From NCBI RefSeq assembly GCF_022827545.1, contig NZ_CP094669.1, forward strand, positions 3,748,001 to 3,812,000: a stretch of DNA of 64,000 nucleotides, in the 5' to 3' direction. A program made the translations under genes and the position numbers. Shown piece by piece: positions 2,875 through 23,674 of this stretch (its first letter is position 1; every line of letters starts with the position of its first letter). The stretch comes from Hymenobacter tibetensis (GTDB taxonomy: Bacteria > Bacteroidota > Bacteroidia > Cytophagales > Hymenobacteraceae). The notes under the pieces are model-generated. The model did not search any database, was not told the DNA's origin, and saw only the letters and a list, made by a program, of their open reading frames with translations.

Positions 2875-4197
2875 ATGAGTACCGCCCGCGAACAGCAAAA
2901 CATTGAATGGAAAGAGTCCTGGCGGGAAGATTACTTCAAGTGGATTTGTGGTTTTGCCAATGCGCAGGGCGGCCGCATCTACCTGGGGAAAAATGACGCC
3001 GGGCAGGTCGTGGGCTTGGCTAACAGCCGAAAATTGCTGGAAGACTTACCCAACCAAGTGCGGGATTTGTTGGGCATCCTGGTGGAGGTCAACCGGCATG
3101 AGCAGGACGAGCTGGAGTACGTGGAAATTGTCGTCGAGCCGTACCCCTACCCGATTAGTTACCGCGGGCAATATCACTACCGCAGCGGCAACACGAAGCA
3201 GGAAGGCCCCGCGTTAAGCGCCTTTTTGCTCCAGAAGCAGGGCAAACGTTGGGACGGCGTCCCGGTGCCCGGCCTTACGACCACCGATCTATCGGCGAGT
3301 GCCTTCGACCTCTTCCGGCAGCGCGCCGCCAAAAGTGGGCGGGTGGACGAGCAGGTGTTGCAAGATAGCAACGAGGCTTTGTTGGAAAACCTGAACTTGG
3401 TAGAGGGCGAGTACCTGAAGCGGGCGGCGGTCCTGCTGCTCCACCCGACCCCCGAGAAGTATGTGACGGGCGCCTACGTCAAGATTGGCTTTTTTGCGAC
3501 CGACGACGATCTGCGCTACCAAGATGAGGTGCACGGGCCCCTGCTGCTGCAAGTGGAACGCACGCTCAAGCTGCTGCAGACCAAGTACAGCAAACAGCAG
3601 GTCCGGTATGAAGGCGCCAGCCGCGTAGAGGAACCGGCCTTCCCGGTCCTGGCCGTGCGCGAAGCCCTGCTCAATGCTCTGGCGCATAAAGATTATAGTG
3701 GCGGCACCCCGGTACAGATCAGCGTGTATGACCACCGCCTGTACGTGTGGAACGAGGGTTACTTACCGGATCAGTGGACGGTGGAGAATCTGCTGCGCAA
3801 GCATCCGTCCAAGCCCTTCAATCCGGAGGTAGCCAACACGCTGTTCCGGGCCGGCTACATCGAATCCTGGGGGCGCGGCACCTTAAAAATGGTAGCCGAG
3901 TGTCGAGCCGCTCGGCTACCAGATCCTAGCTTCCGCTTCGAGGCTTCGGGTTTCGTAGTGGAATTCAGCACGTACACCTCTAGTTATTGGCATGCGAAAG
4001 GCGTACGAATGGACCTGATTCCCGTGCTGCTCTATACGGGGCAACACGGCACGGTCACGAACTCACTCGTGCAGCAGCAGTTGGGCGTCAGTAAACCGAC
4101 GGCCACCCGCTATTTAGGGGAGCTAGAAAAAGGGGGCTACTTACAAAAAATCGGTAAAACGGGGGTTGGCACGCAGTACACGTTAAAGGGCTCGTAA
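2875..4197 (+). CDS. AlbA_2 (Schlafen-type) ATP-binding protein with C-terminal winged helix
   Basis: This is a 440-residue protein of the RecG-like/Schlafen AlbA_2 group. Residues about 8-125 form the AlbA_2 domain (NIEWKESWREDYFKWICGFANAQGG-type start, seen as IEWKES and FANAQGGRIYLG). Residues about 255-345 form a GHKL-like ATP-binding segment (VREALLNALAHKDYSG, then VWNEGYLP and ESWGRGTLK). Residues about 385-440 form a winged helix (QQQLGVSKPTATRYLGELEK). Such proteins are thought to be DNA- or RNA-linked transcriptional regulators, and related ones occur in defence islands. It is monocistronic, so no partner can be named. Confidence 0.85.
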   Translation: MSTAREQQNIEWKESWREDYFKWICGFANAQGGRIYLGKNDAGQVVGLANSRKLLEDLPNQVRDLLGILVEVNRHEQDELEYVEIVVEPYPYPISYRGQYHYRSGNTKQEGPALSAFLLQKQGKRWDGVPVPGLTTTDLSASAFDLFRQRAAKSGRVDEQVLQDSNEALLENLNLVEGEYLKRAAVLLLHPTPEKYVTGAYVKIGFFATDDDLRYQDEVHGPLLLQVERTLKLLQTKYSKQQVRYEGASRVEEPAFPVLAVREALLNALAHKDYSGGTPVQISVYDHRLYVWNEGYLPDQWTVENLLRKHPSKPFNPEVANTLFRAGYIESWGRGTLKMVAECRAARLPDPSFRFEASGFVVEFSTYTSSYWHAKGVRMDLIPVLLYTGQHGTVTNSLVQQQLGVSKPTATRYLGELEKGGYLQKIGKTGVGTQYTLKGS

Positions 4198-4491
4198 AGG
4201 GCTCAGCATAGGAGGCACCCCGTGTTGCAAAACTGTATAAGAAGTGCAGAAAGCCCGTTTTTAGCGAGCAGGCTGGTCCTACGAAAGGGCTCAGGAAGAA
4301 ACACAGCGGGGGCTACTAAGAGGTTATCCTACTTCTTAGGAGGTTATCGAACAAGTAGAGTACCTCCTCCGCTTGGACACTGACGCATCGAGTGGCTCGT
4401 CACGAAGGAAAGACGCCCCAGGCGCAAGAGGAAGTACTGCTTTACCCGGACAGGGAGCCAGAAATTCGCGCGCAGCGTCATTTCAACTAAG
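4198..4491. other. Non-coding gap
   Basis: No convincing gene is visible between the AlbA_2 protein and the next promoter block. The segment GCTTGGACACTGACG near 4372 recalls the CTTGGACA arm of the hairpin repeats at 57.5 and 61.0 kb, but the match is too short to count. Confidence 0.5.
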
Positions 4492-4541
4492 ACAAAGGGC
4501 ATTTTGGTTAAACCCGCTGCTCAGCCAGCGGCGACCTTTGT
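4492..4541 (+). promoter_or_regulatory. Promoter block shared with the 21.2-kb AraC cassette
   Basis: Aligned without gaps to 21155-21204, 34 of 50 positions are identical. The matches concentrate in the first 27 positions (22 identical, including ATTTTGG at 4501-4507 versus GTTTTGG) and the last 9 (GACCTTTGT, all identical). The two conserved parts lie the same 41 bases apart at both sites. GACCTTTG at 4533-4540 resembles the -7 box and is 37 bases before the ATG. The upstream part is probably the binding site of the AraC protein encoded at the end of each operon. Confidence 0.7.
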
Positions 4542-4569
4542 CTCGTTAACCAACCGAAAATAACTACTT

Positions 4570-5544
4570 ATGAAAGCGGTTAGAATTCATGCCTTTGGCG
4601 GACCTGAGGTTCTGCAAGTAGAAGAGGTGGCGCGGCCGGTACCGGCCGCCGACGAACTCCTCGTCAAGGTGTACGCCAGCGGCGTAAACCCAGTAGATTG
4701 GAGCATTCGCGAAGGCGGCAACGACGCGCTGCGGGCTTATCTGACCCTGCCGATGACCCTAGGCTGGGACGCAGCCGGCGTGGTGGCAGCGGTAGGCAGC
4801 GAGGTCACCGGCTTTCAGGTAGGCGATGCTGTCTATGGCGAGCCCAACTTCCCCGGCAATGGCAGCTACGCGGAGTACTGCGCGGCCAAAGCCAGCCAGT
4901 TTGCCCACAAGCCCCAACGTCTCGACTTTATCGCCGCGGCGGGCGTGCCGCTAGCCGGCCTCACGGCCTGGACGGGCCTCTTCGAGCACGGAAAGCTGCA
5001 GCCGGGCCAGCGCGTGCTTGTTCAGGGGGCTTCGGGCGGCGTGGGTGGTTTTGCGGTGCAGTTTGCCAAAGCCAAGGGGTCGTATGTGATCGGCACCGCC
5101 TCGGCCGGCAACCTGGACTATGTCAAGCAGCTGGGCGCTGACGAGGTCATTGACTACCGCAGCCAGGAACTAGCGGCGCTGGTGCACGAGGTGGACGTGG
5201 TGCTGGAAGCCTCACCGGTGCGCGATAACACCGAGCGAGTGCGCGCCGTGGCCGTGTTGAAGAAAGGCGGCATTTTCGTCAGCGTCAATGTCGATTTCCC
5301 TTTCAATGAAGCCATGCAGGCGGCGCTGACCCAGCAGCAGGCCACCGGCGCACTGGCAGCCAACCAGCCCCGGCAGGACTGGCTGCAGGAAATTGCCCAG
5401 CTCATTGATGCCGGCCAGGTGAACGTCTTGGTTAGCAGTGTCTATCCGCTGGCGCAGGTGGCCGACGCCCACCGTGAAAGCCAGACGTGGCGCGTGCGGG
5501 GCAAGCTGGTGCTGGAAATAGCCAAAGACGGCGAGCAGGCATGA
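4570..5544 (+). CDS. NADP-dependent zinc-free alcohol/quinone oxidoreductase (MDR)
   Basis: This 324-residue MDR protein begins MKAVRIHAFGGPEVLQVEEV. It has the GroES-like half (VYASGVNPVDWSIREGG, then LGWDAAGVVAAVG) and the Rossmann half with VQGASGGVGGFAVQFAKAKG as the NADP-binding loop, followed by LGADEVIDYRSQE. No zinc-binding cysteines are present, consistent with the quinone/enone reductase type. It is the first gene of an operon whose second gene, an AraC regulator, overlaps its stop codon by ATGA. It sits behind the conserved promoter block at 4492-4541. It is similar in layout to the MDR gene at 1212-2294. Confidence 0.92.
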   Translation: MKAVRIHAFGGPEVLQVEEVARPVPAADELLVKVYASGVNPVDWSIREGGNDALRAYLTLPMTLGWDAAGVVAAVGSEVTGFQVGDAVYGEPNFPGNGSYAEYCAAKASQFAHKPQRLDFIAAAGVPLAGLTAWTGLFEHGKLQPGQRVLVQGASGGVGGFAVQFAKAKGSYVIGTASAGNLDYVKQLGADEVIDYRSQELAALVHEVDVVLEASPVRDNTERVRAVAVLKKGGIFVSVNVDFPFNEAMQAALTQQQATGALAANQPRQDWLQEIAQLIDAGQVNVLVSSVYPLAQVADAHRESQTWRVRGKLVLEIAKDGEQA

Positions 5545-6449
5545 GGCGCTTCTCCACAATAGGCGCGTTTCACGCCTTTGTACACCTGCCCCCGCCCCAG
5601 CACCCCCTGCTCAGCGTGGTGGACGTGAGCACCGTGCCGCATCAGTACGGCGCGGAGCCCACAAGTATGGTGCTGGATTTCTACGCCATTTCTGTCAAGC
5701 GCATGCGCAACGTGCGCGTGCATTACGGGCAGCACCCGTTTGACTTCAACGAAGGCGTCCTCTCGTTCATGGCGCCTCACCAGGTATTCAGCATGGCGGT
5801 GGCCGACCCAGCCGCGGAAGTGGAAAAATCCGGGTGGGTGGTGTATATCCACCCGGATTTTCTGTGGAATACGCCGCTGGCCAAAACCATTCAGCAATAC
5901 GATTTCTGGGATTACGCGCTCAAAGAAGCACTGTTTCTGTCCGCCAAGGAAGAGGCCACCATCCTGGGCCTCATCGGGGCCATGGAGCAGGAGTACGCGG
6001 CCAATCTTGACCGGTTCAGCAAGCCGATTATCGTCTCGCACGTGGAAAGCCTGCTGCAATACGCCGACCGGTTTTACCACCGCCAGTTCCTGACCCGTGA
6101 AAAGGCCAACCACGAGGTGCTTGAACGGCTGGAAACCCTGCTGCACTCTTATTTCAATGGCGCGGATGTGACCGAACGAGGCCTGCCGACGGTGCACTAC
6201 GTGGCCGACTGCCTGCAGCTGTCCCCTAAGTACTTAAGCAACCTGCTGCGCGTCGTTACGGGACAAAACACCCAGCAGCACATTCACGCCAAGCTGATCG
6301 CTAAAGCCAAGGAAAAGCTGTCGACCACCACGTTGACCGTCAGCGAAATTGCCTATGAGCTCGGGTTCGAGCATGTGCCCTCGTTCAGCAAGCTGTTCAA
6401 GGCCAAAACGAGCCTGTCGCCTTTGGCGTTTAGAACCTCTTTTACTTGA
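5541..6449 (+). CDS. AraC-family transcriptional regulator (paralogue of the 22.7-kb gene)
   Basis: This 302-residue protein starts at the ATG overlapping the upstream stop (ATGA), implying translational coupling. The N-terminal about 190 residues form a cupin-like sensor region (VDVSTVPHQYG, VHYGQHPFDFNEGVLSFM, then SGWVVYIHPDFLWNTPLA with an extra K before SGW). The C-terminal AraC DNA-binding domain covers about residues 215-302, ending in VSEIAYELGFEHVPSFSKLF. The protein is clearly paralogous to the product of 22754-23674, with near-identical segments such as TGQNTQQ and KAKEKLSTT. It probably autoregulates the operon through 4492-4541. Confidence 0.92.
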   Translation: MRRFSTIGAFHAFVHLPPPQHPLLSVVDVSTVPHQYGAEPTSMVLDFYAISVKRMRNVRVHYGQHPFDFNEGVLSFMAPHQVFSMAVADPAAEVEKSGWVVYIHPDFLWNTPLAKTIQQYDFWDYALKEALFLSAKEEATILGLIGAMEQEYAANLDRFSKPIIVSHVESLLQYADRFYHRQFLTREKANHEVLERLETLLHSYFNGADVTERGLPTVHYVADCLQLSPKYLSNLLRVVTGQNTQQHIHAKLIAKAKEKLSTTTLTVSEIAYELGFEHVPSFSKLFKAKTSLSPLAFRTSFT

Positions 6450-16635: not shown

Positions 16636-17676
16636 TTACAAGGTGGCCATGTCAATTACAAAGCGGTAGCGCACATCGCCTTTCAGCATCCGCTCGAAAG
16701 CAGAGTGAATATCTTTGATGTCTATCACTTCGATGTCTGACACTAGGTTGTGCTCGGCGCAGAAATCCAGCATTTCCTGGGTTTCGGGTAGGCCCCCGGC
16801 CCCTGAGCCGGTCACTGTTTTGTTGCCATTCGCTAGGCTGAAGGAAGGCACCTGCAAGGGCGCCAGCGGCATGCCCACGTTGATGTAGGTGCCGTTGGTG
16901 CGCAGCAGGGGCAGGTACAGGTTGATGTCGTGGTCGGCCGCCACCGTGTCCAAAATAAAATCAAATTGCCCCTGCACGGCCGCTACTTCGGCGGCGTTCT
17001 TGGTGACGACAAAGTGGTGCGCGCCTAACGCCTTGGCATCTTCGCGCTTGGCTTCGGAAGTGCTGAGCACAGTCACGTCGGCCCCGAAGGCCACGCCGAA
17101 TTTGACGCCCATGTGTCCCAGGCCACCCAGGCCCACCACGGCCAGCTTGTGGCCGGGACCTACCCGCCAGCGACGCAGGGGCGAGTAGGTGGTGATGCCG
17201 GCGCACAGCAGTGGGGCCACGGCGGCTAGGTCCAGCTTCTCGGAAATTCGGTGGGCAAAGTCCTCGTGCACCACGTTGTGGTTGCTGTAGCCGCCGTAGG
17301 TAGGCAGCCCGTCGTGGCCGGTGCTGTTGTAGGTCTGCACCGGGCTTACCTGGCAGAATTGCTCCTGGCCATTCGCGCAGTCGGCGCAGTGGCGGCACGA
17401 ATCGACCATCACGCCGACGCCGACCAGGTCACCGACCTTAAACTTGTGGGCGTGCGCGCCCACGGCCACCACGCGACCTACCATTTCGTGACCAGGTACC
17501 AGCGGGAATTGGCTGTGCCCCCATTCGTTGCGCAGCAGGTGCCAGTCGGTGTGGCACACGCCACAGTACAGAATTTCGATTTGTACGTCGTGGGGCGCCA
17601 GGTCGCGGCGCTCGAACGTCCAGGGGGCTAAATCGGTTTGCGCATCGTGCGCGGCGTATCCTTTGGCAGCTAGCAT
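16636..17676 (-). CDS. Zinc-dependent NAD(P) alcohol dehydrogenase (CAD/YahK type)
   Basis: This 346-residue enzyme is a zinc MDR of the cinnamyl alcohol dehydrogenase/YahK group, which reduces aldehydes with NADPH. Catalytic zinc ligands are Cys41 (YCGVCHTDW) and His63-Glu64 (VPGHEMVG). The structural zinc lobe is VDSCRHCADCANGQEQFC. VVGLGGLGHMGVKFG is the nucleotide-binding loop, and CAGITTYSPLRRW carries the remaining catalytic Cys. The gene is monocistronic on the minus strand behind a GACCTTTG box and faces an AraC regulator located upstream in the same orientation. Confidence 0.95.
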   Translation of the reverse strand: MLAAKGYAAHDAQTDLAPWTFERRDLAPHDVQIEILYCGVCHTDWHLLRNEWGHSQFPLVPGHEMVGRVVAVGAHAHKFKVGDLVGVGVMVDSCRHCADCANGQEQFCQVSPVQTYNSTGHDGLPTYGGYSNHNVVHEDFAHRISEKLDLAAVAPLLCAGITTYSPLRRWRVGPGHKLAVVGLGGLGHMGVKFGVAFGADVTVLSTSEAKREDAKALGAHHFVVTKNAAEVAAVQGQFDFILDTVAADHDINLYLPLLRTNGTYINVGMPLAPLQVPSFSLANGNKTVTGSGAGGLPETQEMLDFCAEHNLVSDIEVIDIKDIHSAFERMLKGDVRYRFVIDMATL

Positions 17677-17705
17677 CGGGGTCGGTTAAAAAGTAGTGAA
17701 CTCGA

Positions 17706-17713
17706 CAAAGGTC
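17706..17713 (-). promoter_or_regulatory. ADH promoter -7 box
   Basis: On the coding strand the octamer is GACCTTTG, 30 bases upstream of the ADH start codon. The same octamer lies 26-44 bases before other starts in this window and is close to the Bacteroidota consensus TAnnTTTG. Confidence 0.5.
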
Positions 17714-17776
17714 CGCCTGCCCCCACCGGCTGGTTAAGCGAATACCCAACCAAAACTTGTCTTATTCAAACCTGCC

Positions 17777-18691
17777 TTAGCGGACCAGCCGCCCGGATGC
17801 CTCGGCCCGCCGGAATGCGTTGGGCGACGTGCCGGCGTGCTTGCGAAAAAAGTGGTTGAAGTACGTGGGGTCGGCAAAGCCTAGCGCCTCGGCTACGTCG
17901 GCAATGGGCCAGTCGGCATGCTGCAGCAAGCGCTTAGCCTCCTGCGTAATACGCGCCGCCAGGTGCGCGCTGGTCGGTCGCCCCGTTACGTCGCGCAGCA
18001 CCCGGCTCAGGTAGTTGACGTGTACGCCCAGGTGCTGGGCAAAGGCCTCCGCTGTGTGCAACGGCAGGGGCCGGGCGGGTGACGTGACGGGAAACTGTGT
18101 TTCCAACGCCTGCAAAAACTGGGTGGCTAGTCGGCTGGCCGCACTCGGGTCGGCCAGCTGCGGCACGTCGGGTTGCATGCGCAGGGCTTCGTGCAGCAGC
18201 AAGTGCACGTGCGTGCGCAGTAGGTCGAACTTATAGCGGTACGAGGAATTGACCTCGGCCAACATCTGCTGGAAAAGTTGGGTCAGGAACGCGCATTGCT
18301 CGTCGGTGAGCAGAAATACGGGACTGGTACCCAGCTGAAACAAGGGTGAATCTGCCCACGGCACCCCCTGCCCCGGCGTGGACAGAAACTCGGTGGTAAA
18401 CAGACAGCAATACCCGTGCAGCGGCTCGATAGGCGTGCAGGCATAGGGGGCGAGCGGATTATAGAGCAGCAGCGCGGGACTCTCAATCCGCAGTGAGTGC
18501 CCGGCGTATTGCAGCTGCGTGGTGCCGCCCGTGTAGAGGCTAATTTGGTAAAAATCGCGGCGGCCGTAGGGCAGGCTCGGCTGACTGACCCCAGTGGCAA
18601 TAGGATAGACGTTGAACGGCTGCGGCACTTGCGGCAGATGCTCCTGCAAGTAGTGCTGGTGAAACTGGCTGAGGGATTCGCGAGGCGACAT
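17777..18691 (-). CDS. AraC-family transcriptional regulator
   Basis: This 304-residue regulator has an N-terminal cupin-like region (FYQISLYTGGTTQLQYAG, then PALLLYNPLAPYACTP) and a C-terminal AraC domain. The first HTH is FAQHLGVHVNYLSRVLRDVT and the second is IADVAEALGFADPTYFNHFF, followed by RKHAGTSPNAFRR. Such Bacteroidota AraC proteins usually sit next to the oxidoreductase they induce. Here the zinc ADH lies 100 bases downstream on the same strand. It does not share the distinctive segments of the 5541 and 22754 paralogue pair. Confidence 0.92.
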   Translation of the reverse strand: MSPRESLSQFHQHYLQEHLPQVPQPFNVYPIATGVSQPSLPYGRRDFYQISLYTGGTTQLQYAGHSLRIESPALLLYNPLAPYACTPIEPLHGYCCLFTTEFLSTPGQGVPWADSPLFQLGTSPVFLLTDEQCAFLTQLFQQMLAEVNSSYRYKFDLLRTHVHLLLHEALRMQPDVPQLADPSAASRLATQFLQALETQFPVTSPARPLPLHTAEAFAQHLGVHVNYLSRVLRDVTGRPTSAHLAARITQEAKRLLQHADWPIADVAEALGFADPTYFNHFFRKHAGTSPNAFRRAEASGRLVR

Positions 18692-18978
18692 GAAGGGCGT
18701 TGAAAAGGGCGAATGCTACGCTACAACTACTCATTGGTCAGTATGTTGCTAGGTACAGCCGGTGCCCAGCCGAATAGCATTTATGATAGGACACGTCGCT
18801 CTCAAAGGTCGGAAATTGGTGCGGCAAGCACAGGATTGAGCTTGATAATCCGACGGAGAGCACCACCTAGGTACAAACCAGGACCACTTCAGCGTATCCT
18901 GATGAGGGGATAAGATTTCCTAACCGGTGCGGCGCAAACCGTAGGGAAATAGTGCTGTAAGGAAGCCCCTTTTGAAGG

Positions 18979-19115
18979 TCAACAGGTTAGAAGTGCCATT
19001 CCCCGTGACTATTGCCCAAACCATGACTTACGCCCGTGGCCAGCCTAGCAGCTTGGACATGGGCGACATTCTGGTGCGGCCAACGGCCCGGAATGGAGCC
19101 GTCATGCCACCCTGA
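18979..19115 (+). pseudogene. SDR C-terminal remnant
   Basis: The plus strand ending at the TGA at 19113-19115 encodes PFPVTIAQTMTYARGQPSSL and then DMGDILVRPTARNG. The pattern of a helix followed by VxxGDILxRPTAQ is the normal C-terminus of YdfG-like short-chain dehydrogenases. Everything upstream of about 18979 lacks SDR content. The rest of the 18692-18978 gap shows no gene. Confidence 0.6.
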
Positions 19116-19222
19116 ATCATGTTGGGCAGCGAGCAGGCTTCACGGACTGTGAACACGCACGTGGGTTAGAGACGCAAGCAACATTGAGCTTTCTACGCAA
19201 ACACATAGTATCAGCATTCTAT

Positions 19223-19230
19223 GACCTTTG
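19223..19230 (+). promoter_or_regulatory. Likely -7 box of the AraC gene at 19257
   Basis: GACCTTTG begins 34 bases before the chosen ATG. An ATG at 19221 directly overlaps this box, which is why I treat 19221 as promoter and not as a start codon. Confidence 0.45.
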
Positions 19231-19256
19231 TTTGGTCGGTTGAAACCAGTAGACAA

Positions 19257-20084
19257 ATGAAAACGGAACCCTCCCCTACCCTTAATCAGCCAGGCATACT
19301 CTACTCAGAGTACGCAAACCGCTACGTGGACGCGGACCAATGTGTGGCCGTGCATGGCCTAACCTATCTGCTGGCGGGGAGCCTGCGGGTCACGGAAGTC
19401 GGACAAAGTCGTGTATTCGAGGCGGGCAGTTTGCTGTTCACTCGCAAAAACTTCCTAGCCAAATTCACCAAGCAGCCGGCCGCAGATGGGCCTTTTCGAG
19501 CCATTACAGTGGCATTTGATACTCTTACTCTGCTCGCAGCCAGTCAAGCATACGGCAAACGTAGCGAGCCACTCCCTGCGAGTAGTCCGGCCATTACGGT
19601 TCTAAACACAACCCCGCCGCTCCAGCAACTCGGCGAGTCTCTCCAACCTTATTTCGCCCAGTCCTTGCCCGCGTCCCTGGCTCACGTGAAGCAACAGGAA
19701 GCCTTAGCATTGCTCCTGCAGGCCCACCCGGCCCTGCAACCGGTACTGTTCCATTTCGCGCCGCCCGGTAAAATCGACCTGGAAACCTTTATGCGGCAGC
19801 ACTTCCGCTTCAATGTTGGCCTGCCACAGCTGGCGTACCTCACGGGGCGGAGCCTGGCCAGCTTCAAACGGGATTTTCACCGGATTTTTCGCACCTCGCC
19901 CGCCCGCTGGGTTTACCAACAGCGACTGGCCGAAGCCCATTACTTGCTGCAACAAGAACACAAGCGTCCTTCGGAGGTGTACCAGGAAGTGGGCTTTGAG
20001 AGCTTGGCGCACTTCTCCTATGCCTTCAAGCGGCTGTTTGGTTGCCCGCCTTCCAGCGTGTATGCGCCCGGTCTGGCCGGTTAG
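19257..20084 (+). CDS. AraC-family transcriptional regulator
   Basis: This 275-residue protein begins MKTEPSPTLNQPGILYSEYA. The N-terminal sensor half contains GLTYLLAGSLRVTEVGQSRV and AGSLLFTRKNFLAKFT. The C-terminal DNA-binding half contains LPQLAYLTGRSLASFKRDFH, then TSPARWVYQQRLAEAHYLLQ and VYQEVGFESLAHFSYAFKRL. The start at 19257 is preferred to the ATG at 19221, which lies on the probable promoter box. It is followed 70 bases later by an SDR gene in the same direction, its likely target. Confidence 0.9.
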   Translation: MKTEPSPTLNQPGILYSEYANRYVDADQCVAVHGLTYLLAGSLRVTEVGQSRVFEAGSLLFTRKNFLAKFTKQPAADGPFRAITVAFDTLTLLAASQAYGKRSEPLPASSPAITVLNTTPPLQQLGESLQPYFAQSLPASLAHVKQQEALALLLQAHPALQPVLFHFAPPGKIDLETFMRQHFRFNVGLPQLAYLTGRSLASFKRDFHRIFRTSPARWVYQQRLAEAHYLLQQEHKRPSEVYQEVGFESLAHFSYAFKRLFGCPPSSVYAPGLAG

Positions 20085-20154
20085 GGCGGGTGCGAGCTTT
20101 TACCAGCCCGTACGCCTTCTAGCTACAACTATACTACCCTCTTTTCCTTGCTTT

Positions 20155-20976
20155 ATGCCTACCATCTTCATTACTGGCGCTTCGTCCGGCCTCGGGAAAG
20201 CCACAGCCAAACTTTTTGCCGCCCGGGGCTGGCGCGTCATGGCCACCATGCGCCACCCCGAGTACGAAACCGAGCTTGGGCAGGTGCCGGGCGTGCACCT
20301 GCTGCCGCTGGATGTAACCGACCCGACTCAGATCGAGCAGACGGTGCAACGCGCTATTGCGCTGCACCCTGTCGACGTGGTATTCAACAATGCTGGCTAC
20401 GGCCTTATCGGCGCGCTGGAAGCCGTGTCGGATGAGCAGATTACGCAGTTGCTTACTACCAATCTGCTCGGCGTCATTCGGGTCACGAAGGCGTTTCTGC
20501 CCCATTTGCGGGCCAAGCGGTCTGGCCTTATTTTGAGCACGACGTCCATGGGCGGCTTCCTCACCTTTCCACTCTACTCAATTTACCACGCCGCCAAGTG
20601 GGCCGTGGAGGGCTGGAGTGAGAGCATGTCGTTCGAGTTGGCCCTGCATAACATCCGCATCAAAACGATTTCACCCGGCGGTACCGCCACTGACTTCACG
20701 GGCCGCTCGCTGCAGGTAGCTGAGCATGAGGCCTACAGTGGCTTATTTCAGCAGCTGTTGGCCGGGCAGGAAGGCGTCCAGTTTGCGCCCGCTGAGGTTA
20801 TTGCCCAGGTGGTGTATGCGGCGGCGACTGATCCACAAGATCAACTTCGCTACCCGGCCGGCCCCGATGCCGTAGCCGCTTACGCCCAGCGGCAAGCAGC
20901 TGGCCCTGAAGTTTTCCGTCAAGGGGTGGCCGCTCAATTTGGGTTGCCCAAGCCAGCAATTCAACCAGCCACTTAG
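20155..20976 (+). CDS. SDR-family oxidoreductase (classical type)
   Basis: This 273-residue short-chain dehydrogenase begins MPTIFITGASSGLGKATAKL with the TGxxxGxG cofactor loop at residues 7-14. VVFNNAGYGLIGALE carries the NNAG motif, STTSMGGFLTF the catalytic Ser region, and YSIYHAAKWAVEGW the YxxxK pair. The C-terminal half resembles the 17-beta-hydroxysteroid-like SDRs. An ORF extending upstream into the AraC gene is a shadow frame. The pair AraC-SDR forms a likely induced cassette; the substrate is unknown. Confidence 0.92.
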   Translation: MPTIFITGASSGLGKATAKLFAARGWRVMATMRHPEYETELGQVPGVHLLPLDVTDPTQIEQTVQRAIALHPVDVVFNNAGYGLIGALEAVSDEQITQLLTTNLLGVIRVTKAFLPHLRAKRSGLILSTTSMGGFLTFPLYSIYHAAKWAVEGWSESMSFELALHNIRIKTISPGGTATDFTGRSLQVAEHEAYSGLFQQLLAGQEGVQFAPAEVIAQVVYAAATDPQDQLRYPAGPDAVAAYAQRQAAGPEVFRQGVAAQFGLPKPAIQPAT

Positions 20977-21154
20977 CGCCCGTTAGTTTGCGCTGCATTG
21001 CCTGCAGATACCACCTGGTTCCGCTCCGCCACTAGGTGCCCCGCTAACCAATGGCTAGGCACGTACCCGAAGCCGGTACAAGAGAATCCTACTTCAGGCC
21101 CTCTCTATTTCCTACAAGGGAATTGTTTGAGATGACGAGTGACTTTTGACTACA

Positions 21155-21204
21155 ACAAAAGGCGTTTTGGCTACAGCCGCTTTTTACGTGGGATTGACCT
21201 TTGT
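21155..21204 (+). promoter_or_regulatory. Promoter block shared with the 4.5-kb AraC cassette
   Basis: This block aligns without gaps to 4492-4541 (34 of 50 identical, concentrated in the first 27 and last 9 positions). GACCTTTG at 21196-21203 lies 44 bases before the SDR start codon. The upstream part includes GTTTTGG and GCCGCT. It probably binds the AraC protein encoded at 22754-23674. Confidence 0.7.
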
Positions 21205-21239
21205 TCTGTCACTATCACCCCACGTAAAATAGCCGGAAA

Positions 21240-22016
21240 ATGGAATTGAAGAACAACACCGTCCTGATTACGGGCGGGACAAGCGGGTTTGGGCTGGAAT
21301 TCACCAAACGCTTCCTGGAGTTAGGGAATACCGTACTTATCACGGGCCGCAATCCGGCGAAACTAGCCGAAACCAAAAAGCTGTTTCCGCAAGTCCACAC
21401 CTTTCAAAGTGATATCAGCAAGCCCGAAGATATCCAGGCCTTGTATCAGCAAGTGCTGGAGAGATTTCCTGACCTGAATATCCTCATCAACAACGCCGGT
21501 GAGATGCGCAAGCTTGTTCTCCACGACGAGCATGATCTGCTGGATATCACCCGGGAGATAGAAATTAACCTAATGGGACCGATCCGGATAATCCAACAGT
21601 TTCTACCCCACCTGAAAAAGAAAAGTGCCGCCGCCATTCTCAATGTCACGTCCGGCATTGCCCTGATGGCCTTTCCCATCGCGCCCGTGTACGGCGCCAC
21701 GAAATCCGGGCTGCGTTCCTATACCCAATCGTTACGGGTGCAACTGAAGAACACCAGTATCAAGGTGTTTGAATTGGTAGCGCCTGGCTCCCCCACCCCC
21801 TTGAACGATAAGTTCAAGGAGCTAGATGGCTTTAGTTCGAGCGGTATGCTGGCGCCTGAAAAAATAGTGGCAGCCGCCATCAAAGCCATGCAGCAAGACA
21901 AATGGGAGATTTATCCTGGCCTGCTGCGGGCCATTCGCTTTGTTATCCGGCTGGCCCCGCAATTTGTGCTGGCGCAAGCCAGTAAAATCGGTGCTTCCGC
22001 CATGCAAGGCAAATAA
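21240..22016 (+). CDS. SDR-family oxidoreductase (DltE-like)
   Basis: This 258-residue SDR starts MELKNNTVLITGGTSGFGLE. NILINNAGEMRKL holds the NNAG motif, ILNVTSGIALMAFPIAPVYG the Ser and Tyr region, and ATKSGLRSYTQSLRVQL the Lys helix. The sequence resembles DltE-type oxidoreductases. It heads a four-gene operon: a 17-base gap leads to a small membrane protein, then a DoxX-like protein, then an AraC regulator paralogous to that of the 4.5-kb cassette. The upstream promoter block is shared with that cassette. Confidence 0.92.
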   Translation: MELKNNTVLITGGTSGFGLEFTKRFLELGNTVLITGRNPAKLAETKKLFPQVHTFQSDISKPEDIQALYQQVLERFPDLNILINNAGEMRKLVLHDEHDLLDITREIEINLMGPIRIIQQFLPHLKKKSAAAILNVTSGIALMAFPIAPVYGATKSGLRSYTQSLRVQLKNTSIKVFELVAPGSPTPLNDKFKELDGFSSSGMLAPEKIVAAAIKAMQQDKWEIYPGLLRAIRFVIRLAPQFVLAQASKIGASAMQGK

Positions 22017-22033
22017 CTGTAAGATACTCCAGC

Positions 22034-22234
22034 ATGAAAAACGATACCAAAGGGGTGGCAGCCGCCATTGGGCTCACCTTGCTTAACCTAATTCCATTCG
22101 CCGGCCTTTTCCTGTACCTCAAACAGGGAACTCCATCGCCTGATGATACGAGAAGAATCTTAGTGAGTACGTTAGTTGATATTCCAGCCCGATTGGCAAT
22201 GGGCTATTTGCTCAACACCTACATCTGCAACTGA
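22034..22234 (+). CDS. Small membrane protein (66 aa)
   Basis: The product has one strong hydrophobic helix near the N-terminus (AAAIGLTLLNLIPFAGLFLY) and a weaker second one (LVDIPARLAMGYLLNTYI). I do not recognise a family. It lies 17 bases after the SDR and 1 base before the DoxX-like gene, so it is almost certainly part of the same mRNA and may be a partner of the DoxX-like membrane protein. Confidence 0.65.
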   Translation: MKNDTKGVAAAIGLTLLNLIPFAGLFLYLKQGTPSPDDTRRILVSTLVDIPARLAMGYLLNTYICN

Positions 22235-22235
22235 C

Positions 22236-22589
22236 ATGGCCAAGAACATAATTGCCTTGCTGCTAATGGCCCTGTCGGTCAGCTTATCCTTCAAGCACGG
22301 CTGGGATTCGTTGCAGGTCAAAGACAATCCGGCACCGGCAAAAATGATGAGCGAATTGGGTATTAGCAGCGCACTAGTTCCTCTTTTGGGAGGGATTACT
22401 ATCGCTATTGGCTTACTGACGCTGTTCCCGAAAACATTCTTCCTTGGCAACCTACTCAACGCGCTATCCATTGTGGCAATAATGGCGTTGGCCTTACAAG
22501 CTGGCAATTTCAAAATTGCCTTGCTGGAAATTCCTTTTTTGCTACTTCCTCTGGGACTGATCTATTTACGCTATCCTTTCCAAGGGTAA
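22236..22589 (+). CDS. DoxX-like family membrane protein
   Basis: This 117-residue protein has four predicted membrane helices, starting MAKNIIALLLMALSVSLSFK. The pattern of KHGWDSLQ followed by SELGISSALVPLLGGITIAI is typical of DoxX-like proteins of Bacteroidota, which form redox-linked inner-membrane complexes with oxidoreductases. The ATG at 22236 was chosen because it follows the previous stop by one base, whereas the longer frame starts inside the preceding gene. Confidence 0.82.
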   Translation: MAKNIIALLLMALSVSLSFKHGWDSLQVKDNPAPAKMMSELGISSALVPLLGGITIAIGLLTLFPKTFFLGNLLNALSIVAIMALALQAGNFKIALLEIPFLLLPLGLIYLRYPFQG

Positions 22590-22615
22590 TACGCCAGGGT
22601 GAATCGCCAGTGCTC

Positions 22616-22713
22616 CTTCAGTGGTAAAGCAACTTCAATGCTTCAGTGACGAGCAAAAAGGACAGGGCGTTTACCAACTATCCTTCAGCTAAATAATACT
22701 TAGCGCTTCAGTG
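22616..22713 (+). promoter_or_regulatory. Three exact CTTCAGTG repeats upstream of AraC
   Basis: CTTCAGTG occurs at 22616-22623, 22641-22648 and 22706-22713 in the 164-base gap before the AraC gene, with a near copy (CTTCAGCT) at 22683. All are in the same orientation. This could be an additional regulator site for internal transcription of the AraC gene. Confidence 0.35.
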
Positions 22714-22753
22714 CGAATTTCTATTGTAAAGAGGATCAACAACTGAAAATGCC

Positions 22754-23674
22754 ATGACCAGCAATAAACCCCTACGAATAAAAACAATTACGGAAGGCCA
22801 TCGAATTTTGGGCTTGCCCAAACCTGAACATCCCTTGATCAGTGTGGTAGAGTATGCCGCGCTGCAAACCCCCGCCGCCGACACGACGCATACTGGAGCG
22901 CTGTTCGATTTTTATTTTATTTCCCTTAAAAAAGGATTTCGCAATAAATTTTACTACGGACAACAGCAGTATGACTTTGATGACGGGATGATGTATTTCG
23001 TGGGTCCCAATCAATTAGTCAGAGGCGCTGGCCCAAGCCCAGAGGATGACCTTTCCGGCTGGATTCTGTTGGTTCACCCGGATTTGCTGTGGGGCACACC
23101 CCTGGCGAAAACAATCAAAAAATACGAATACTTCGATTACTCGGTGAACGAAGCCTTATTTCTTTCAAATAAGGAAGAACTCATCATTAACAACATAATC
23201 GCCAATATTAAAACTGAATACCACGCGAACATCGATAAATTCAGCGAAAGTATTCTTGTTTCTCATTTTGAAACGTTGTTGAATTATTCGAAACGTTTTT
23301 ATCAGCGCCAATTTATCACGCGTAAAAGGAGTAATCACCAAATTCTGGATCGGCTAGAAAAGTTGCTGGCAGATTATTTTACTAGTGATGATTTAGCGGT
23401 CAAAGGGCTGCCGAGCGTACACTATATTTCCAGTGAGCTCCATGTTTCGCCTACTTATTTACGCGGGCTGCTGAAGGTTTTAACAGGGCAGAATACGCAA
23501 CAGTATATTCACGATAAACTGATTGAGAAGGCGAAAGAAAAATTATCAACCACCGCTTTGTCTGTCAGCGAAATTGCCTACGAATTAGGATTTGAACATC
23601 CCCAGTCATTTAGCAAACTGTTCAAGACAAAAACCAGCGTTTCGCCTTTGGAATTCCGGCAATCATTTAACTGA
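22754..23674 (+). CDS. AraC-family transcriptional regulator (paralogue of the 5.5-kb gene)
   Basis: This 306-residue protein is paralogous along its length to the product of 5541-6449. Shared landmarks are HPLISVVE, YYGQQQYDFDDGMMYFVGPN, VHPDLLWGTPLAKTI, TGQNTQQYIHDKLIEKAKEK and VSEIAYELGFEHPQSFSKLF. The N-terminal about 190 residues are the sensor region and the last about 90 the AraC HTH. Its codons are visibly more AT-rich than those of the 5541 copy, which suggests separate acquisition and not a recent tandem duplication. It closes the SDR/DoxX operon and probably binds 21155-21204. Confidence 0.92.
   Translation: MTSNKPLRIKTITEGHRILGLPKPEHPLISVVEYAALQTPAADTTHTGALFDFYFISLKKGFRNKFYYGQQQYDFDDGMMYFVGPNQLVRGAGPSPEDDLSGWILLVHPDLLWGTPLAKTIKKYEYFDYSVNEALFLSNKEELIINNIIANIKTEYHANIDKFSESILVSHFETLLNYSKRFYQRQFITRKRSNHQILDRLEKLLADYFTSDDLAVKGLPSVHYISSELHVSPTYLRGLLKVLTGQNTQQYIHDKLIEKAKEKLSTTALSVSEIAYELGFEHPQSFSKLFKTKTSVSPLEFRQSFN

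Follow-up and report, generated by a model that had tools for sequence, protein, structure and literature searches.

What makes two operons that begin with unrelated redox enzymes share one stretch of promoter sequence? Within 64,000 nucleotides of Hymenobacter tibetensis (contig NZ_CP094669.1, positions 3,748,001 to 3,812,000; this whole stretch is called the window below, and positions are counted from its first letter), an operon running from an MDR-family oxidoreductase to the AraC-type regulator A1 and another running from an SDR-family oxidoreductase to the AraC-type regulator A2 are preceded by related blocks of 50 bases. We consider it probable, at roughly 0.8, that each block represents the downstream portion of a class II activator site of the AraC type, joined to a weak Bacteroidota promoter, autoregulated by the AraC protein of its own operon, and that the two window cassettes are probably insulated from each other. 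The first-pass annotation, made from the letters of the window, had aligned 4492-4541 with 21155-21204 without gaps at 34/50 identical positions, and had placed the four genes and called the regulators paralogous, all of which is borne out (Table 1). It had also described conserved block ends, which holds for the last nine positions (9/9) and largely for the first 27 (22/27, against 3/14 in the middle 14). The block was, however, cut short: the 50 bases start inside a spacer and hold the proximal half-site alone, so that the distal cores of both sites were missed.

The full element consists of two half-sites in direct repeat (core TTTnGGCTAC/A) with a period of 21 bp, followed after a further 21 bp by the Bacteroidota −7 box GACCTTTG, whose end lies 29 bp from the ATG of the MDR gene and 36 bp from that of the SDR gene. 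Close orthologs of A1 (71-84% identity) define a set of 39 A1-type loci in 37 genus genomes, the window's included and one cut by a contig end; in 38/38 of these loci the MDR gene is preceded by half-sites close to GnCATTTTGGCTAA and GGCATTTTGGTTAA at the same 21-bp period, and then by a linker of varying sequence and GACCTTTG. According to PMC9723704 the Bacteroidota −7 consensus TAnnTTTG spans −12 to −5, which puts the proximal core between about −43 and −34, where a class II activator would sit. The element thus has the form of a class II operator, with a 21-bp direct repeat and, relative to the predicted start site, a proximal half-site that adjoins or overlies the upstream promoter element and takes up the place of the −33 element. 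The −7 box retains AnCTTTG and has mostly G or C in place of the consensus T at its first base, as would fit a weak, activator-dependent promoter. The repeat also emerged from a search anchored only on the −7 box within 3.6 kb upstream, in which, at a threshold of 9/14 bases alike below which about half of the loci fall, a period of 21 was found in 29/51 loci of a first set (0-3 for the other periods from 14 to 35), 25/60 of a second (1-5 for the others from 17 to 25) and 33/80 of a later set (1-3 for the others from 15 to 28).

Table 1. Features of the two operator-promoter elements and their operons in the window
Feature	Position	Strand	Remark
Site 1 distal half-site core TTTCAACTAA	4481..4490	+	kept in 38/38 A1-type loci, window's included
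Site 1 proximal half-site core TTTTGGTTAA	4502..4511	+	21 bp from distal core
Site 1 −7 promoter octamer GACCTTTG	4533..4540	+	21 bp past proximal core; expected transcription start ~4545
MDR-family NAD(P)-dependent oxidoreductase	4570..5544	+	domains ADH_N, ADH_zinc_N; best NCBIfam match, below cut-off, PIG3-type quinone oxidoreductase
AraC-type regulator A1	5541..6449	+	4-base overlap with MDR stop
A1 codons 278-281 (HVPS)	6372..6383	+	start of second recognition helix
Site 2 distal half-site core TTTTGACTAC	21144..21153	+	
Site 2 proximal half-site core TTTTGGCTAC	21165..21174	+	
Site 2 −7 promoter octamer GACCTTTG	21196..21203	+	expected transcription start ~21208
SDR-family oxidoreductase	21240..22016	+	
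117-aa protein between SDR and AraC genes	22236..22589	+	no Pfam or NCBIfam match
AraC-type regulator A2	22754..23674	+	54% identical to A1
A2 codons 282-285 (HPQS)	23597..23608	+	counterpart of A1 residues 278-281

An identity of 34/50 is by itself not extreme, as 8/600 random 50-mers of the window matched at least 34 positions elsewhere in the window on either strand. The match is counted as real because of its position and conservation, which became apparent when a sequence-only profile built from 37 relatives of site 1, with the window left out (the A1-type model), found site 2. Over the whole 6.33-Mb genome (7 contigs) this model scored site 1 at E 1.1e-18 and site 2 at E 1.2e-11, the only two strong sites, and the matches that followed had E 0.0019 and 0.05. 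A simpler search with a 16-base core pattern, allowing up to two mismatches, gave 16 genome matches, of which the two perfect ones lie in the window, while the reversed pattern gave 14; this was too weak, and profile models were used instead. The match at E 0.05 lies in the window (17705-17769, minus strand), has the GACCTTTG box and no clear 21-bp repeat, precedes a zinc-ADH gene (16636-17676) and follows a different AraC-type gene (17777-18691).

The block also accompanies this AraC subfamily among relatives, an expectation of the earlier reading that could have failed. Across 101 genus genomes it is present in 37/37 with a close A1 ortholog (our own included) and in 4/64 of the others. Since the model was trained on A1-type operons, the informative part of this comparison is how rarely the block occurs in the remaining genomes. 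Two of the four exceptions retain, besides the block, only a remnant of the MDR gene, and the other two hold another regulator of the same family. At E 1e-4 the model gave 53 matches in 41/101 genomes: 39 at A1-type MDR operons, one of which is divided between two contigs, seven at other operons or genes of the same AraC family, five ahead of gene starts that are broken or unassigned (G020, G042, G049 C111, G028 C504 and G028 C69), and two that are additional copies, one in tandem and one divergent. At three loci (L318, L319 and L321) no more than some 20-30 codons from the start of the MDR gene remain behind the operator, and at L324 a broken start and an AraC fragment; these four are decayed cassettes in which the promoter has outlived the operon. 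The tandem copy (L054:363-431) lies directly upstream of the main operator, and at L323 a second A1-type site (3824-3891, minus strand) is oriented the other way, some 50 bp away from the A1-type operator, facing a divergent gene.

The regulators have the C-terminal domain with two helix-turn-helix (HTH) motifs and the AraC or RhaR-like sensor and dimer domain of the AraC/XylS family, and the sensor domain of the A1 structure model resembles those of E. coli RhaR and AraC, which makes ligand-controlled activation the likeliest mode. In the mechanism that we propose, the AraC protein from the last gene of the operon would bind the two half-sites as a dimer and, when its sensor domain holds ligand, could recruit RNA polymerase from the proximal half-site, whose end lies 21 bp ahead of the −7 box and which adjoins or covers the position of the −33 element. 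Expression of the operon would then produce both an NAD(P)-dependent redox enzyme and the operon's own activator. To judge from the enzymes, quinones or reactive carbonyls are candidate signals, and the ligand is perhaps a quinone or carbonyl substrate of the operon's enzyme. The half-sites would have diverged along with the second recognition helix, probably leaving the window cassettes insulated from each other.

Such co-divergence is visible in part in the sequences, as half-site letters vary between regulator subclades. In A1 the helix begins HVPS and the half-sites end CTAA and TTAA, whereas in A2 it begins HPQS and both half-sites end CTAC. We scanned 302 regulator residues over 117 non-redundant loci, with shuffles and with both half-sites, in place of an earlier mutual-information run over all columns that was dominated by variable columns; 8/38 A1-type loci were admitted to avoid swamping, and L116 was dropped for its short regulator. 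The top-associated residue was H278 for core bases 4, 7 and 8 and P280 for base 10 (with V279 third), and for base 6 S281 came third, after I270 and F301. In the A1 structure model the second recognition helix comprises residues 279-290, a stretch that corresponds in the alignment to the second HTH of E. coli AraC. In MarA the second HTH is reported to enter the B-box (PMC8279559).

A rule linking V, L or I at residue 279 with A at core base 10, and Tyr278 with A at base 7, was written down before a later set of loci was fetched, and it held there (80 loci, 74 with a site and 67 used, five poor ones and two at least 90% identical to the first set being left out). In that set, aliphatic residues at 279 went with A in 8/8 proximal half-sites against 10/57 in the others, and in 6/8 distal half-sites against 6/56. 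Two of the eight need qualification, as L309 is the previously seen L040 and L269 carries M, which the rule did not name; without them the counts are 6/6 and 6/6. Conversely, L251 and L295 were counted as not aliphatic on truncated translations, and in the other frame their helices read EHLQ and EHLP, with TAA at both half-sites. Tyr278 went with A at base 7 in 4/5 proximal half-sites against 10/62, and in 3/5 distal ones against 2/62. Within enzyme classes, the proximal A accompanied aliphatic 279 in 4/4 NmrA-like loci (5/55 of the others) and in 2/2 SDR loci (8/52 of the others), while in the MDR class residue and enzyme are confounded, every MDR locus in the set being aliphatic at 279. Since the two window regulators have different helices, with corresponding differences in both half-sites, two separate self-controlled switches are expected.

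The first-pass annotation had instead pointed to one small regulon with a reusable control cassette, in which both AraC proteins would read both blocks. The two sites do share the half-site core TTTTG, the spacer ACAAA-GGC and the −7 box, and a model of A1-type sites scores the A2 site as well. Against this stand the TAA and TAC ends, fixed in both half-sites of each site at a base associated with residues 279-280 (VP in A1, PQ in A2), the count of 46/53 strong genus sites that precede their own AraC operon, and the presence of only two strong A1-type sites in the whole of our genome. We therefore regard a single shared regulon as unlikely; the cassette half of the proposal stands, as its layout recurs across the phylum with the enzyme exchanged.

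Still less probable is that the likeness is merely inherited, as non-functional sequence or a generic strong promoter left by a recent duplication. The regulators are indeed paralogs, and the shortened MDR gene starts described above indicate that the element can persist for a time without its operon. Yet over 38 loci the half-sites and the −7 box are fixed while the linker between them and the box varies, and the same spacing is found phylum-wide with different half-site letters. An RNA hairpin or attenuator formed by the inverted block ends ACAAAGG and CCTTTGT, present in both window blocks, was rejected as barely credible, given that, with the A1 clade set aside, pairing of the arms (85 training and 74 later loci) is no stronger than in 2000 shuffled pairs whose arms come from separate loci, that positions 4300-4700 gave no Rfam match at E 1, and that the second arm is the −7 box and hence lies upstream of the expected start.

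Several points weigh against the preferred reading of each element as a self-controlled activator site. What is said of binding and expression is read from sequence, and binding, activation, insulation and ligand are predictions. The distance from the end of the proximal core to the −7 octamer, 21 bp in 105/123 loci and 22 bp in the other 18 (21 bp in 67/69 later loci), was scanned over few bases only. The candidate-site score itself rewards likeness between the two half-sites, although values of at least 19 were reached by 73/89 real sequences against 4/89 reversed and 1/89 reverse-complemented ones, and no credible site was found in 25/118 loci, with none or a poor one in 11/80 later loci. 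In the residue scan, high scores for some bases were also obtained at N-terminal and other columns, and such columns lead for core bases 5 and 9. With phylogeny counted, the link between helix and half-site is not significant (p 0.05 unreached), the independent evolutionary events being few: two to three independent pairs for residue 279 with none opposed, eight for residue 280 (about four for, one against) and four for residue 278 (about three for, none against). Finally, the A2 gene starts 164 bp behind the gene before it and might have its own promoter.

Relatives of A2 at E 1e-60 occur in 64/296 genomes drawn across the phylum. The best A2 matches in this set lie outside the genus and reach 66%; among the genus loci examined the nearest are at 84% (L085) and then 62%, although nearer ones may have been missed in the genus, A1 having been the query. 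We classified the gene behind the best candidate site in 149 loci with eleven reference proteins and start motifs, and found MDR in 39, SDR of four types in 42, NmrA-like in 19, AKR in 12, the AraC gene itself in 10, other genes in 10 and none in 17. On a tree of 117 non-redundant regulators, 103 of them labelled by class, the enzyme class changes at least nine times. The earlier observation of unrelated enzymes behind a related promoter and regulator extends well beyond the window, and the promoter-regulator unit forms a single family across Bacteroidota, with repeated replacement of the enzyme.

A broader proposal is that operator and regulator diversified together through residues 278-281, so that one autoregulated promoter-operator-AraC unit, joined to at least four oxidoreductase classes Bacteroidota-wide, gave rise to many mutually insulated switches with a readable partial recognition code. 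This code would read aliphatic 279 as a TAA end, P, S or A at 279 as TAC, Tyr278 as GGATAC, and Tyr or His at 281 as TTTGTrTA. We hold this joint proposal tentatively, at somewhat short of even odds; its rule for 281 (Tyr or His with TTTGT) comes from eight loci, seven of them in one subclade, with no case in the later set.

Some operators depart from the pattern of one site and one operon. In our own genome an operator with GTGTAG half-sites, the AKR dialect, precedes an AKR gene (L325:2438-2504, C1:4319437-4319503), and the 6.5 kb fetched there contain no AraC relative, the matching regulator being on another replicon (C2:34966); this AKR gene is a candidate target in trans. Of five significant matches of model R2 in the genome, four were in its training, and C1:4319437 alone is independent. 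Five loci of the AKR-type subclade (L119, L123, L125, L127 and L128) have two AKR genes adjoining one AraC gene, with two sites of the same dialect each, a possible local two-promoter regulon. Relatives of the 117-aa protein also sit between SDR and AraC genes in L085, L088, L089, L180 and L181. The window is rich in pairs of redox genes and regulators at 1212-2779 and 16636-23674, namely an MDR with a divergent HxlR-like regulator, a zinc-ADH with AraC, an AraC with SDR and an SDR with AraC (HxlR and zinc-ADH assigned by sight).

Among the closest known systems is E. coli AraC at araI1-I2, a case of class II activation in the AraC/XylS family. Like E. coli AraC, the A1-type regulators combine a sensor domain with a two-HTH DNA-binding domain, and like araI1-I2, their sites are direct-repeat half-sites 21 bp apart adjoining the core promoter; unlike there, the promoter has a Bacteroidota −7 box, the targets are redox enzymes and not sugar genes, and the regulator comes last in its own target operon. 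The aldehyde response of E. coli offers a second possible parallel: YqhC is an AraC-type activator of the NADPH-dependent carbonyl reductase YqhD, although the regulator's position differs, yqhC being divergent from its target gene. Within the phylum, two reports describe Bacteroides RhaR, of the AraC family, and hybrid two-component system regulators (HTCS) with an AraC domain, for which tandem sites with a 21-bp period are predicted (PMC3870299, PMC3878776). They share with our regulators the phylum and this period, and the sensor domain of the A1 model resembles that of E. coli RhaR. Both kinds differ from ours in controlling sugar and polysaccharide loci with other half-site letters, and the HTCS are membrane sensor kinases fused to an AraC domain.

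Direct repeats of 21 bp are thus already known for Bacteroides AraC-domain regulators, and what is described here is a new, large subfamily of that kind, on which no paper was found among open-licence literature listings. Its points of interest are the exchange of enzymes and a recognition rule that can be put to the test. Few types of bacterial regulator are as common as the AraC proteins, and to our knowledge the DNA site is unknown for most of them and no general recognition code exists. Because regulator and site stand in one operon, genome sequences supply natural pairs in large numbers, which makes such a code directly testable. The same pairs would permit site prediction for many uncharacterised Bacteroidota redox operons and may supply orthogonal switches for a phylum poor in genetic tools, and they let enzymes be seen exchanged behind a fixed control unit.
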